DNA of 64,000 nucleotides from Halomicroarcula saliterrae (GTDB lineage Archaea > Halobacteriota > Halobacteria > Halobacteriales > Haloarculaceae). Of the stretch, positions 13,964 through 20,237 are shown in pieces. The notes under the pieces are model-generated. The model saw only the letters and a program-made list of their open reading frames with translations. It did not search any database and was not told the origin of the DNA. The position numbers and the translations under genes are program-made. How positions within the stretch are numbered: position 1 is the first letter of the stretch; each line of letters opens with the position of its first letter. The DNA lies in the NCBI RefSeq assembly GCF_031624395.1, contig NZ_JAMQON010000001.1, positions 434,001 through 498,000 of the forward strand, written 5' to 3'.

Positions 13964-13970
13964 TATTTTA
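13964..13970 (+). promoter_or_regulatory. TATA element of the R15P isomerase-kinase operon
   Basis: TATTTTA centred 29 bases before the ATG at 13996, consistent with a leaderless message. The divergent ABC operon starts at 13826, so its control region lies in the same 169-base spacer. Confidence 0.6.
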
Positions 13971-13995: not shown

Positions 13996-14952
13996 ATGGA
14001 CAGGGCCGACCTCCAGCCGCGGGTACGCGACGTGGCCGGAGCCATCGAGACGATGGAGACGCGAGGAGCCGCAAACATCGCCGACGCGGCGGCCGATGCA
14101 CTCAGGGCACAGGCCGATGGGAGCGAGGCCGAGACGGCCGCGGCGCTACTGGCGGAGCTCCGGGCGGTCGCACGACTCCTGCTCGCGACGCGGCCGACGG
14201 CGGTCAGCCTCCCGAACGCCTGCCGGTACGTGTTGCGGCGGACCGGCGGCGACTCCGTCGAGGCGGTCCGGGCGAGCGCCGTCGAGAGCGTCGCGGAGTT
14301 CCGGGCCAGACTGGAGACGGCACAGCGCGACCTCGGCCAGGTCGGCGCCAACCGGCTCCGGGACGGCGACACCATCATGACCCACTGCCACTCGACCGAC
14401 GCGCTGGCCTGCGTCGAGGCGGCCGTCGACGACGGGAAGGCGCTGACAGCTCTCGTCAAGGAGACCCGACCCCGAAAACAGGGCCACATCACCGCCCGCG
14501 AGCTGACCGAGCTCGGCGTCGACGTGACGATGGTCGTCGACAGCGCCGCCCGGCGGTACATGAACGAGGTGGACCACGTGCTGGTCGGCGCCGACGCCAT
14601 CGCCGCCGACGGGAGTGTCGTGAACAAGATCGGCACCTCGGGACTGGCCGTCGTCGCCCGTGAGCGCGGGACACCCGTCGTGGTCGCCGCCGGGACGCTG
14701 AAGCTCGACCCGGCGACGATGACCGGTAACGCCGTCGAGATCGAGATGCGCGAGGAGAGCGAGGTGCTCGACGAGACGGAGCGAGAGGCCATCGGCGACA
14801 TCTCGGTCGAGAACCCGGCCTTCGACGTGACGCCGCCACGCTACGTCGACGCCATCGTCACCGAGCGCGGCCAGTTTCCGCCCGAGAGCATCGTGACGCT
14901 GATGCGCGAGCTGTTCGGCGAGGGGCCGACCGAGCCCTGGCAGGAGCCATGA
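13996..14952 (+). CDS. Ribose-1,5-bisphosphate isomerase
   Basis: A 318-residue member of the eIF2B-alpha/MtnA/R15P isomerase superfamily, converting ribose-1,5-bisphosphate to ribulose-1,5-bisphosphate. C131 in MTHCHSTD and D200 in VGAD fall where the catalytic Cys133 and Asp202 of the Thermococcus enzyme lie, and the KIGT motif (211-214) follows. The N-terminal helical domain (1-120) is typical. The PfkB kinase start overlaps its stop by 4 bases. With the RubisCO gene 2 kb away this places the gene in nucleoside-ribose degradation. Confidence 0.9.
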   Translation: MDRADLQPRVRDVAGAIETMETRGAANIADAAADALRAQADGSEAETAAALLAELRAVARLLLATRPTAVSLPNACRYVLRRTGGDSVEAVRASAVESVAEFRARLETAQRDLGQVGANRLRDGDTIMTHCHSTDALACVEAAVDDGKALTALVKETRPRKQGHITARELTELGVDVTMVVDSAARRYMNEVDHVLVGADAIAADGSVVNKIGTSGLAVVARERGTPVVVAAGTLKLDPATMTGNAVEIEMREESEVLDETEREAIGDISVENPAFDVTPPRYVDAIVTERGQFPPESIVTLMRELFGEGPTEPWQEP

Positions 14953-15830
14953 GCGACGAGCCGTTGCGCGTCATCTGTGCCGGCCACGTCAACTGGGACG
15001 TCACGCTGCAGGTCGACCGGCTCCCCGAGCCCGACGGCGAGGCCAGCATCGCCGACCAGTACCAGTCCGGCGGCGGGAGCGCGTCGAACGTGGCCGTGGC
15101 GCTCGCGGGACTGGACGCCAGCCCGCTCCTGCTCGGAAGCGTGGGCCGCGACGAGAACGGCCTGCTGGTGCGGCGCGAACTGGACAGCGCGGGCGTCGAA
15201 ACGGCCCTCGTCGAGACCGACGGCGAGACGGCCGTCAAGTACCTCGTGGTCGACGATTCGGGCGAGCTGATGATGTTCGGGAACGAGGGGGCAAACGAGG
15301 CCTACGCCGCCGCGGACCTCTCGGCGGCCCAGCTCGCCGGTGCCGACCACCTCCACCTGACCAGCCAGTGCCCCGAGACGGCAGTCGAACTGGCCCGCGC
15401 CGCGTCCGAGGCGGGACTGACGGTGAGCTTCGACCCCGGTCGACGGCTCGCGGACCGGGACTACGCGGCGACCATCCGCAACACTGACATCCTGTTCTGT
15501 AACGAGCGCGAGGCGACTGTGCTCCGGGACGAAGCCGACGCGGTTGACACGCTGGTCGTCAAACAGGGCTCCGGCGGTGCGACGGCCTTCGACGGGGACC
15601 GGGACGTGGCCCATCCGGGATTCGCCGTCGACCCGGTGGACACGACGGGTGCCGGCGACGCGTTCGCCGCCGGATTTCTCGTGGCCCGCGCCGACGGCGA
15701 CGCTATCGAGCGGGCGCTCGCAGTGGGCAACGCCTGTGGTGCGCTCGCGGCCCGGACGCCCGGCGCTCGGGTCCAGATAGAGTGGCGCGACGTGGACGCG
15801 CTCCTCGATATCGGCCCGAGTGAGCCGTGA
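14949..15830 (+). CDS. PfkB-family sugar kinase, probable ribose-1-phosphate kinase
   Basis: A 293-residue ribokinase-fold kinase. The substrate-binding GGGSASN motif is at 41-47, NERE at 185-188, and the anion-hole/catalytic DTTGAGDAF at 231-239 with D237 as base. It is translationally coupled to R15P isomerase. Known haloarchaeal work describes a PfkB-family ATP-dependent ribose-1-phosphate kinase that makes ribose-1,5-bisphosphate next to this isomerase; I infer the same here. Without that context only 'carbohydrate kinase' would be justified. Confidence 0.8.
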   Translation: MSDEPLRVICAGHVNWDVTLQVDRLPEPDGEASIADQYQSGGGSASNVAVALAGLDASPLLLGSVGRDENGLLVRRELDSAGVETALVETDGETAVKYLVVDDSGELMMFGNEGANEAYAAADLSAAQLAGADHLHLTSQCPETAVELARAASEAGLTVSFDPGRRLADRDYAATIRNTDILFCNEREATVLRDEADAVDTLVVKQGSGGATAFDGDRDVAHPGFAVDPVDTTGAGDAFAAGFLVARADGDAIERALAVGNACGALAARTPGARVQIEWRDVDALLDIGPSEP

Positions 15831-15947
15831 GTCGTCGCGAGTCGTCTCACTCACCGAACGGTCGCCCCTTTCTGGCCCGACCGAGGTGTCGAGAGCGACT
15901 GCCAGCGGCGCTTTTGACGCTACAGAGCGCTCGAAACCCAGCGGTCG

Positions 15948-16961
15948 TCACTCCGGAACCGCTTCCAGCAGCCGCTCGAACTGCTGGCGGTACTGGGCCT
16001 CGGCGCGGGCCTTGACCAGCCCGGAGTCGTCGTCGAACACCGCGTCGAAGCCGGCCATCCGCCACAGGAGCGTCGAGAGCTGGTACAGCGGCCGGCGGTC
16101 GGCGTAGCCGTCCTCGAAGTCCATCGGCCGGTGGGCGGTGTACCCCTCGTGGAACTCCGAGCGGAGCGACTCGCGCACCTCGGGGTCGGTGAAGGACGAG
16201 TCGATGAAGAGAAACTCCGTCTGTGCGAGGTTGTATTCGGGGAGCGCCGCGAGCACGTCCTGCCAGTCGAGCACCGCCGTAATCGGCTGGTCGGCGCCGG
16301 CCTCGAACAGCAGGTTCGCCGGTCGGAAGTCGTCGTGGACGAGCCGGGGGACGCCGTCCTCGGGGACGAACTCCAGCGCGGGCTCGATTTTCGTCACCGC
16401 CCGGTCTCTCACGTCCGAAAACGGCGTATCGTCGAGTCGCGAGAGGTGGGCCCGCGTCAGCTGCTCGAAGTACTCCCGCCAGCTCCCCATCCAGTCACGG
16501 ACGATGAGCCGGCCGTTGTGGAGATCAAGCCGTCCGAACGCCTCGAACCCGATTTCGGAGTGGAGGTCCCCGAGGATGTGGCCCGCCTGGTGCATGACGT
16601 GACGGCGGTCCGCCGACGAGAGCGTCGCGAACTCCTGGGAGAGGTTCTCCCCGTGGACACGCTCGGTGACGAAGTAGGGGCGCACGTCGACGGTGGGTTT
16701 CTGTTTGAACACGAGGATGCGGGGCACCGGCACGTCGGTCCGGTTGGCGACGTACTCGTGGAGCTTCGGCTCGATGTCGAAGGGGATGTCGCCGGCCGGT
16801 TTGAACTTCACGACCACCTCGTACTCCTCGCCGCCGTGGTCCAGTGTCACCATGTAGACATCGCTCTGGTGACCACCGCCCGGCGTCTCGAAGGTGAACC
16901 CGTTGTAGTCCGGCCCCGACTCGTCGAGGACAGCGCGGATATCGTCTTCCGGCGTCGACAC
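15948..16961 (-). CDS. Aminoglycoside phosphotransferase (APH)-like kinase
   Basis: A 337-residue protein-kinase-like small-molecule kinase. It has an N-lobe lysine in VVVKFK (around 50), the catalytic loop HDDFRPAN (209-216) and the metal-binding aspartate in LDWQD (D232). Such enzymes phosphorylate aminoglycosides, choline, fructosamine or other hydroxyl compounds; the substrate is unknown. It lies in the same direction as RubisCO and just downstream of it, between RubisCO and the R15P isomerase/kinase operon. A role in pentose metabolism is possible but unproven. Confidence 0.82.
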   Translation of the reverse strand: MSTPEDDIRAVLDESGPDYNGFTFETPGGGHQSDVYMVTLDHGGEEYEVVVKFKPAGDIPFDIEPKLHEYVANRTDVPVPRILVFKQKPTVDVRPYFVTERVHGENLSQEFATLSSADRRHVMHQAGHILGDLHSEIGFEAFGRLDLHNGRLIVRDWMGSWREYFEQLTRAHLSRLDDTPFSDVRDRAVTKIEPALEFVPEDGVPRLVHDDFRPANLLFEAGADQPITAVLDWQDVLAALPEYNLAQTEFLFIDSSFTDPEVRESLRSEFHEGYTAHRPMDFEDGYADRRPLYQLSTLLWRMAGFDAVFDDDSGLVKARAEAQYRQQFERLLEAVPE

Positions 16962-17029
16962 TGGGAGCGGCTAAGAGGGTTGGCTAAATAAAACTGTCAG
17001 TGTCCGGCCGCCGGCGGTGTGTCCGACAC

Positions 17030-18304
17030 CTACCGCGGCGTCTCCGTCCCCCACTGCTCCAGTGCGACGGCTAGCTCCGGGGTCTCCGCCGCTGCGTCCT
17101 CGATGTCGCGGCCCGCGGCCACGGCGTCGACGGCGGCTCTGAGCGCTTTCGCGCCGGCGTGGGTCCCGTCGGGGTGACCGTGGACCCCGCCGCCGGCCTG
17201 CACGCCGATGTTCGTCCCGCAGCGCTCGACGAGTTCGGGGACGAGCCCCGGATGCAGGCCGCCCGAGGCCATCGGGAGCACGTCGGTGAGCCCGTGCAGG
17301 TCCGAGTAGAGCCACTCGTTGATGCCGACAGTGTCCTCGTTGGCCAGCTTCCCGAGGTCCGCGGTCCCGGTGTGGATCTGGTCGACGCCACAGAGCCGGG
17401 CGACCTGTGCGACGACGCGCATCGAGACGCCGTGGTCGGGCAGGCGGTCGAAGGCGGCGTGCATCGCGCGGTGGGCGTGGATGGCCAGCCCGTGTTTCTC
17501 ACAGCGCTCGCGGACCTGCTGGACCGCGGCCCACCCCGTCGTCACCACGTCGACCATCACGTACTCACAGCCGTGTTCGGCGGCCAGGTCCACTCGCTCC
17601 AGCATCTCGCCCCCCGCGGCGGTGACGTTCAGCAGGTAGGACTTCGTCTCGCCGGTCTCGTCTTCGGCCCTGTCGCGCATCGCCAGCGACTCGGTCAGGC
17701 GGTCCTCGAAGGGGTTGAACGACTGGTCCGTGAGGTTCTCGTCGTCTTTCAGCAGGTCGAGCCCGCCCGTCCAGGCCTCGTAGCCGATCTGGGCGTGCTG
17801 GTCGGTCGAGAGCCCGACCTTCGGTTTCGGGACCGTCGCGGTAATCGGCCGGTCGCCCGCGTCGAAGATGTCGGTTCGGACACCGGTACCGAACTGCGGC
17901 CCGGGAAAGGAGGTCGCCAGCGGCTCGGGCCACGTGCAGTCTTGCAGGCGGATGCGGTCGACGGCCTTCATCCCGAGGATGTTGCCGGCGATACAGGACA
18001 GCACCTGGGGCATGTTCCCCGGCTCGAAGAGGGCGTCGGGGTAGGCGACGGTGACGCGGTAGCCGTCGCGGCCCTCGCTCACCGTCGCGTCCTCGATGCC
18101 ACAGGCCGTCGCCGAGAGGTCCGTCACCGACCCCTCGACCTGCAGCTCGGCCCAGGTGCCGTTGGAGGACTCGCTCGCGACCCGGCTGGCCGCGGACTCC
18201 GGGGTCTGATCGGCGGCCGGCTCGACGTAGAACGCACAGACGAGTTCGGTCTCGTCGGGCTCGTGGTCCAGGTCGAGGAAGTCCTCGTAGGTAATTCCTA
18301 CCAT
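17030..18304 (-). CDS. rbcL: RubisCO large subunit, form III
   Basis: A 424-residue archaeal RubisCO that carboxylates ribulose-1,5-bisphosphate to two 3-phosphoglycerates. All key residues are visible: K160 and K162 in PKPKVGLS, the carbamylated K186 with D188 and E189 in GGLDLLKDDEN, H278 in AHRAMH, H311 and loop-6 K319 in TADLGK, S347 in ASGG and the phosphate-binding GGG at 371. The start MVGITYEDF is chosen over an ATG 15 bases upstream because a TATA element lies exactly 27 bases before it. No small subunit or phosphoribulokinase is seen, as expected for form III. Confidence 0.95.
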   Translation of the reverse strand: MVGITYEDFLDLDHEPDETELVCAFYVEPAADQTPESAASRVASESSNGTWAELQVEGSVTDLSATACGIEDATVSEGRDGYRVTVAYPDALFEPGNMPQVLSCIAGNILGMKAVDRIRLQDCTWPEPLATSFPGPQFGTGVRTDIFDAGDRPITATVPKPKVGLSTDQHAQIGYEAWTGGLDLLKDDENLTDQSFNPFEDRLTESLAMRDRAEDETGETKSYLLNVTAAGGEMLERVDLAAEHGCEYVMVDVVTTGWAAVQQVRERCEKHGLAIHAHRAMHAAFDRLPDHGVSMRVVAQVARLCGVDQIHTGTADLGKLANEDTVGINEWLYSDLHGLTDVLPMASGGLHPGLVPELVERCGTNIGVQAGGGVHGHPDGTHAGAKALRAAVDAVAAGRDIEDAAAETPELAVALEQWGTETPR

Positions 18305-18326: not shown

Positions 18327-18334
18327 TGATAAAT
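18327..18334 (-). promoter_or_regulatory. TATA element of the RubisCO gene
   Basis: ATTTATCA on the minus strand, centred 27 bases upstream of the ATG at 18304. It supports a leaderless RubisCO message and decides between two candidate start codons. Confidence 0.65.
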
Positions 18335-18487: not shown

Positions 18488-18985
18488 ATGGTGGAACTCA
18501 GACTCATCGCGGGCGTGGCCCGCACTGGCGTCATCGGCGACGGCGAGACGATACCGTGGCACTACGACGCGGACGAACAGCAGTACAAGGACCGCGTCGC
18601 CGACCACCCGGTCGTCGTCGGCCGCAAGACCCACGAGGGGATGACCCGCATCCGCGGCACCCACCCCGTCGTCGTCACCGGCAGCCCCGAGGAGTACGAC
18701 GAGGACGGCGCCACCTTCGTCTCGACCGTCGGAGACGCCGTCGACGCCGTCGCCGCCGAGGGCGACACCGGCTGGGTCATCGGCGGCCAGTCGATCTACG
18801 CCATGTTCCTCCCCTACGCACACCGGGCGTTCGTCTCGGAGCTGCCCGAGACGGCGGTCGCGAGCCGCGTGTTCCCCTATCTCGGGACGGACTGGTCGGT
18901 CGAGGCGCGCCACGAGTACGACCAGTTCGAGGTCGTCGAGTACGAGAACCAGGCCCCGCTCGACCCCGAGAACGCGTCGGCCTGA
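18488..18985 (+). CDS. folA: Dihydrofolate reductase
   Basis: A 165-residue DHFR reducing dihydrofolate to tetrahydrofolate with NADPH. Visible hallmarks are VIGDGETIPWH (15-25) near the active-site acid, the cofactor-binding GRKTHEGM (45-52) and the WVIGGQSIYAMF segment (96-107). Length is typical for haloarchaeal DHFR. The dihydropteroate synthase gene follows 61 bases later in the same direction, so the two form a folate cluster. Confidence 0.94.
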   Translation: MVELRLIAGVARTGVIGDGETIPWHYDADEQQYKDRVADHPVVVGRKTHEGMTRIRGTHPVVVTGSPEEYDEDGATFVSTVGDAVDAVAAEGDTGWVIGGQSIYAMFLPYAHRAFVSELPETAVASRVFPYLGTDWSVEARHEYDQFEVVEYENQAPLDPENASA

Positions 18986-19046
18986 CCCGCCTGACGGCGG
19001 TGCCGCAATCACCAACGCTTACCGTGACCAGTCCTTGGTGACGGCT

Positions 19047-20237
19047 ATGCAAACGGTCGACGCGGCAGGGCTGCAGATCGGTGACGACCAGCCACCACGC
19101 ATCATGGGCGTGCTGAACGTCAGCAAGGAGTCGCCGTACTCGCCCTCGGTGTACGACGACCCGGCGGAGGCCGCAGCCTACGTCGACGAGGAGCTCGTCG
19201 GCGAGGGGGCCGACATCGTCGATATCGGGCTGGAGTCGGCCAACAAACGGCTCGACGTGCTCTCCGCCGAGGAGGAGCTCGACCGGCTGGACATCGCCCT
19301 CGAAACCATCGAGTCCGTCAGCGGCGACGCCGTCTACTCCATCGAGACCCGCTACGCCGAGGTCGCCGAGGCGGCCATCGAGGGCGGTTTCGACATGGTC
19401 AACGACATCTGTGGCTTCGCCGACCCCGAGATGCCCGCGGTCTGCCGGGAGTACGACGTGGCCGTCGCCAAGATGGCGAGCCCGCCGGACCTCGAACGGC
19501 CCGGCGCCGTCGAGGAGACCGACTGGGCCGCCCGCCGCTCGCCGGAGTGGGCCGAGTCGGCCGACTACGTCGACCAGGTGTACGAGGCGCTGAAACAGAA
19601 CGGCCTCACCGAGAAGACCATCGTCGACCCGGCCTTTGGCGGCTGGAGCGAGGCCAAGACGATTCGGGACGACCACGCGACCTTCGAGCGCCTGCGGGAG
19701 TTCCGCGGGTTCGGTCGCCCCATCCTCGTCTCCATCAACCGGAAGAACTTCCTCCGGACCATCGCCGACCGCTCGACAGAGGCGGCCCTGCCCGTCTCTC
19801 TGGCCGCGACGGCGATGGCCGTCGAACGGGGCGCACACATCGTCCGGACCCACGACGTCGCTGAGACGGTCGACGCGGCCCGCATCGGCGAGGCGTTCAC
19901 CGAGCGCGCCTACGAAGCGGACGACGGCGTGACCGTCACCGAACTCGACGCCCGCCACTCGGGCGAGGTGTCGCGCCATCTGGAACGGCTTGGCGCGGCG
20001 ACGGGCGTCAGCGAGGCCTACGTCGGCCGCGTCTTCGAGGTCGCAGGACTGGCTCCCGAGGCCGCCTCGACGCTCGCCGCCGTCGCCGAAGAGACCGGCC
20101 TCGTCGTCAGTGCCGGTGACGGCGGGGCAGTCGTCGGCGGCCGGCCGGACACGCTCCGGGCCGTCGCGACGGAGCTGTCGGGGACGGCGGCCTTCGAGCC
20201 GCTCGTCGAAGCGATTCACACGACGCTGTCGGAGTGA
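19047..20237 (+). CDS. folP: Dihydropteroate synthase-like protein with C-terminal extension
   Basis: A 396-residue protein with a DHPS TIM barrel (about 1-285): IMGVLNVSKESPYSP at 20-34, ADIVDIGLESANKR, a VNDICGF motif, the substrate-binding RKNFLR and the RTHDV close to the barrel end. The second motif reads ESANKR where bacterial enzymes have ESTRPG. About 110 extra residues follow the barrel with no motif I recognise. In-frame TTG and GTG codons lie just upstream; the ATG is preferred. It joins pterin pyrophosphate to p-aminobenzoate in folate synthesis. Confidence 0.88.
   Translation: MQTVDAAGLQIGDDQPPRIMGVLNVSKESPYSPSVYDDPAEAAAYVDEELVGEGADIVDIGLESANKRLDVLSAEEELDRLDIALETIESVSGDAVYSIETRYAEVAEAAIEGGFDMVNDICGFADPEMPAVCREYDVAVAKMASPPDLERPGAVEETDWAARRSPEWAESADYVDQVYEALKQNGLTEKTIVDPAFGGWSEAKTIRDDHATFERLREFRGFGRPILVSINRKNFLRTIADRSTEAALPVSLAATAMAVERGAHIVRTHDVAETVDAARIGEAFTERAYEADDGVTVTELDARHSGEVSRHLERLGAATGVSEAYVGRVFEVAGLAPEAASTLAAVAEETGLVVSAGDGGAVVGGRPDTLRAVATELSGTAAFEPLVEAIHTTLSE

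Follow-up and report, generated by a model that had tools for sequence, protein, structure and literature searches.

The carboxylating pentose bisphosphate pathway of Thermococcus kodakarensis leads from ribose-1-phosphate (R1P) through ribose-1,5-bisphosphate (R15P) and ribulose-1,5-bisphosphate (RuBP) to 3-phosphoglycerate (3-PGA), with a form III RubisCO, an NMP phosphorylase and an ADP-dependent R1P kinase (PMC12628685; PMC9700705). In halophiles, according to Sato et al. (2022; PMC9700705), an ATP-dependent R1P kinase (ATP-R1PK) takes the place of the ADP-dependent enzyme, and its biochemistry was shown for Halxa_1682. Three haloarchaeal variants are described there: RubisCO with NMP phosphorylase; RubisCO without it, fed by ATP-R1PK, in 11 of 63 species; and a non-carboxylating route. 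The last of these, found in Halobacterium and relatives, has the R15P isomerase (R15Pi) gene beside that of R1PK and a phosphorylase of the guanosine type, needs a ribulose-1-phosphate (Ru1P) aldolase (FucA) and an RuBP phosphatase, and has no RubisCO. Genomes with an R1P kinase but no isomerase were left open in that work.

The window, by which we mean the whole stretch of 64,000 nucleotides analysed, belongs to the second of these variants. As in Fig. 5b of PMC9700705, its genome has ATP-R1PK, R15Pi, RubisCO and nucleoside phosphorylase and lacks NMP phosphorylase, and against that figure there is no difference in gene content. It shares with Thermococcus the sequence of intermediates and the form III RubisCO, while its kinase belongs to the ATP-dependent family of halophiles. 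From the non-carboxylating pathway it differs in having RubisCO, and no class II aldolase was found in the genome. The initial annotation saw the joining of a kinase-fed route to a carboxylating RubisCO as unusual. This view was not upheld, since the route has already been published (PMC9700705) and the combination is therefore not new; among the 145 genomes of the order compared here, 27 lack NMP phosphorylase and carry RubisCO, R15Pi and R1PK, and a further 17 carry all four genes. Of some interest beyond the published route are the recurrent convergent gene cluster, a conserved kinase of the APH family and a probable gene loss in Haloarcula. Neither the convergent RubisCO cluster nor the APH gene was found in the available text of PMC9700705, where gene arrangements are drawn only for species that lack RubisCO.

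Features of the RubisCO locus (positions in the window; TATA boxes are candidates read from the sequence)
Feature	Position	Strand	Remarks
Candidate TATA box TATTTTA	13964..13970	+	about 29 bases 5' of the R15Pi ATG
R15Pi (ribose-1,5-bisphosphate isomerase)	13996..14952	+	318 aa
R1PK (PfkB-type R1P kinase)	14949..15830	+	
APH-family kinase	15948..16961	-	337 aa; 68 bases downstream of RubisCO, same strand
Form III RubisCO large subunit	17030..18304	-	424 aa; ATG at 18304
Candidate TATA box ATTTATC	18328..18334	-	about 27 bases 5' of the RubisCO ATG

The isomerase, kinase and RubisCO genes had been described as one locus, and all three lie where they were placed. They do not form one operon, and a fourth gene, that of the APH-family kinase, had been omitted. 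R15Pi and R1PK, whose genes overlap by 4 bases, are encoded on one strand and RubisCO and the APH-family kinase on the other, and the locus therefore consists of two convergent units. If the motif upstream of R15Pi is indeed a TATA box, the R15Pi transcript would possibly be leaderless. The RubisCO start agrees with those of its orthologues.

The initial annotation had identified the three enzymes by an isomerase with catalytic C131 and D200, a kinase with a DTTGAGD motif and a RubisCO with all of its active-site residues, and each of these readings was confirmed. R15Pi scored 447.7 bits against TIGR00511, above the curated cut-off of 314.1, and in an alignment to the T. kodakarensis R15Pi structures C131 and D200 coincide with the catalytic residues. 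The kinase scored 394.1 bits (cut-off 330) against NF053626, the curated R1P kinase family, and carries DTTGAGD at residue 231. In a tree with 10 other haloarchaeal PfkB kinases, two of them from this genome, a branch supported at 94/98 separated all the R1PKs from these kinases, so that the kinase is not placed among other sugar kinases, in agreement with its proposed function. As a member of the ATP-dependent halophile R1PK family, it is predicted to phosphorylate R1P with ATP. RubisCO scored 605.1 bits against the form III model TIGR03326 (cut-off 497.45), and the motifs K-P-K, KDDEN, HAHR, IHTGT, GK, SGG and GGG were all located; it would be expected to carboxylate RuBP. The gene is single-copy, PF00016 matching once in the genome, and its product is 91% identical to a RubisCO of Haloarcula rara. 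Chance is excluded as an explanation of these matches, because the E-values are 1e-118 or better and the cluster is conserved in other genera.

Three other sources or fates of RuBP were searched for in the genome. AMP (NMP) phosphorylase is absent; the sole match reached 46 bits against a cut-off of 535 and was rejected as TrpD, the anthranilate phosphoribosyltransferase. Phosphoribulokinase is also absent, and the only match to the PRK family was rejected as a uridine kinase. No class II (FucA-type, Ru1P) aldolase was detected, PF00596 having no match in this genome and matching in 12 of 14 control genomes. The initial annotation had proposed looking for AMP phosphorylase and Ru1P aldolase, and neither AMP phosphorylase nor a class II aldolase of the Ru1P type was found. 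There are two uridine-phosphorylase-type genes. One of them, unlinked to the cluster, is approximately 70-77% identical to phosphorylases encoded beside R1PK in other haloarchaea, and for this reason we assign it to the guanosine phosphorylase group (Urdpase1 in the terms of PMC9700705). With AMP phosphorylase, phosphoribulokinase and class II aldolase absent and a guanosine phosphorylase orthologue present, the only route that can be assembled runs from guanosine to R1P, R15P, RuBP and two molecules of 3-PGA.

In this route, the nucleoside phosphorylase, whose gene lies outside the cluster, would release R1P, the PfkB kinase would convert R1P and ATP to R15P, as its family suggests, and R15Pi, judged by its family and catalytic residues, would isomerise R15P to RuBP. 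Form III RubisCO would then carboxylate RuBP to two molecules of 3-PGA. The presence, arrangement, conservation and co-occurrence of the genes were observed directly, as was the lack of those competing enzymes that were looked for. Judged from sequence, the locus very probably belongs to a carboxylating pentose bisphosphate pathway of the haloarchaeal type that does without NMP phosphorylase, and the earlier proposal that nucleosides are led to 3-PGA through the kinase and a carboxylating RubisCO is likewise very probable, given the kinase family, its clade and the missing alternatives. The supply of RuBP by phosphoribulokinase or NMP phosphorylase, with a different job for the kinase, is highly improbable: each of these routes is known from other archaea, and NMP phosphorylase occurs in 19 of the 47 RubisCO genomes of the order, but neither enzyme was found here, and the kinase gene overlaps that of R15Pi, its product being a member of the R1P kinase family. 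R15Pi and R1PK are common to the carboxylating and non-carboxylating pathways (PMC9700705), and in one comparison genome (G021) they come after HAD-hydrolase and FucA-type genes, so they might serve the non-carboxylating pathway here too. This reading is largely refuted by the absence of a class II aldolase from the whole genome; moreover, the RubisCO gene is intact and lies in one cluster with the others, and in the survey of Sato et al. the species with one route are distinct from those with the other (PMC9700705). We regard it as very unlikely. As a single-genome case, the locus supports the idea that a RubisCO which looks intact can, in haloarchaea lacking AMP phosphorylase, be supplied with substrate derived from nucleosides by way of an ATP-dependent R1P kinase.

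Of the 47 genomes of the order that encode RubisCO, 45 also have R15Pi (Fisher p 1.5e-10; the counts are not phylogenetically independent). The neighbourhoods of 80 named haloarchaeal or near-haloarchaeal RubisCO loci were compared, as had been suggested at the outset, and the cluster was found to recur. RubisCO, R1PK and R15Pi occur together in 20 of these loci, convergent in every one, from Haloarcula, Halomicrobium, Salinibaculum, Halorientalis, Halomarina, Halovenus, Natronocalculus, Halohasta and relatives; R15Pi is nearby without R1PK in 16 further loci.

Within Haloarcula, R15Pi and RubisCO are present or absent together: 4 of 32 genomes have both, and 28 have neither. R1PK scores above its cut-off in 19 of the 32. 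The four complete clusters come from genomes of a single clade. Fifteen of the 28 genomes without R15Pi and RubisCO keep R1PK and the APH-family kinase at the same site, where the neighbours, read in all 15, are metE, an ABC transporter, a membrane protein and the APH-family kinase, the metE or ABC gene being outside the stretch read or weakly matched in some. Halomicrobium, the nearest outgroup used, has the same order of R15Pi, R1PK, APH and RubisCO, and its RubisCOs form one clade with those of Haloarcula (support 95). The simplest reading is that the cluster was inherited in Haloarculaceae and that R15Pi and RubisCO were lost in a large part of Haloarcula, as it looks from these data. Their rarity in the genus could instead suggest a recent horizontal gain of the two genes at this site; the gene order shared with Halomicrobium, the common RubisCO clade and the persistence of R1PK and APH in place in the 15 genomes where the other two genes are missing argue against such a gain, which we consider unlikely. 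If loss is accepted, the Haloarcula comparison amounts to a natural gene-loss experiment that links R15Pi, RubisCO and R1PK functionally, and loss of R15Pi and RubisCO is a likely origin of at least some of the genomes with R1P kinase but no isomerase noted in PMC9700705.

R1PK has evolved faster where its partners are missing. In the 15 R1PK-bearing genomes that lack both R15Pi and RubisCO (loci L053-L055 and L157-L168), which represent one lineage, R1PK lies in the tree, on average, 0.43 substitutions per site farther from the outgroups than in the 4 genomes with both. The distance to Halomicrobium is 1.199 against 0.773, and to the other outgroups 1.714 against 1.288. No similar excess was seen in APH, metE, the ABC protein or the membrane protein, compared at the same Haloarcula site. 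The gene is still constrained: the median dN/dS among 8 of the 15 genomes is about 0.11, which indicates purifying selection, and 72 of 80 invariant columns are kept. At four positions where genomes with R15Pi show no variation, 13 or more of the 15 carry a substitution (Q37R, S139G, H222N and F225Y). These observations fit a change in the job of R1PK after its partners were lost and support its link to R15Pi and RubisCO. Outside the genus, in other families, genomes with R1PK and without R15Pi give both high and low family scores, and the rate shift is not put forward as a general pattern. The joint presence and absence of R15Pi and RubisCO in Haloarcula, their absence from the same site in 15 genomes and the faster evolution of R1PK there are apparently new.

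The locus also points to an uncharacterised kinase. The APH-family protein scored 89 bits against PF01636, and the catalytic motifs HDDFRPAN and LDW are conserved in all, or all but a few, of the 17 orthologues compared. Its gene adjoins RubisCO in 10 of the 80 named loci, is a conserved neighbour in Haloarcula, Halomicrobium, Salinibaculum and Halovenus, and stays with R1PK where R15Pi and RubisCO are missing. The AlphaFold2 model is poor (mean pLDDT 57.6), and a sequence search found only remote APH relatives among solved structures. A speculative and rather doubtful suggestion is that this kinase is an unrecognised member of the pathway, for example phosphorylating free ribose at C1 and so feeding R1PK, and that R1PK and APH were re-employed together after the loss of R15Pi and RubisCO. 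If true, this new role would explain a speed-up under purifying selection that is confined to R1PK.

Several other observations were made at these and related loci. In G021, HAD hydrolase, FucA-type aldolase, R15Pi and R1PK genes are consecutive on one strand (L179:4951-8363), which is the gene set of a non-carboxylating operon; the HAD hydrolase gene there (L179:4951-5664) is a candidate RuBP phosphatase. Beside RubisCO in the window there are a DHFR gene and a dihydropteroate-synthase-like gene (18490-20237); in Haloarcula without RubisCO, the dihydropteroate-synthase-like protein at the corresponding site is only about 45% identical. Low-scoring RubisCO matches in G138, a Haloarcula (L056:7416-8618), and in G085 (L058:7203-8405) are not form III; these RubisCO-like proteins are closest to OiaX, the 3-oxo-isoapionate-4-phosphate decarboxylase, with 490 and 484 bits, respectively, below the curated cut-off of 700. 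Finally, two records of DPANN archaea, titled Candidatus Nanohalalkaliarchaeum and Nanohalarchaeota (L147 and L149), contain a RubisCO 66-67% identical to that of the window, which could reflect gene transfer from haloarchaea or a binning error.
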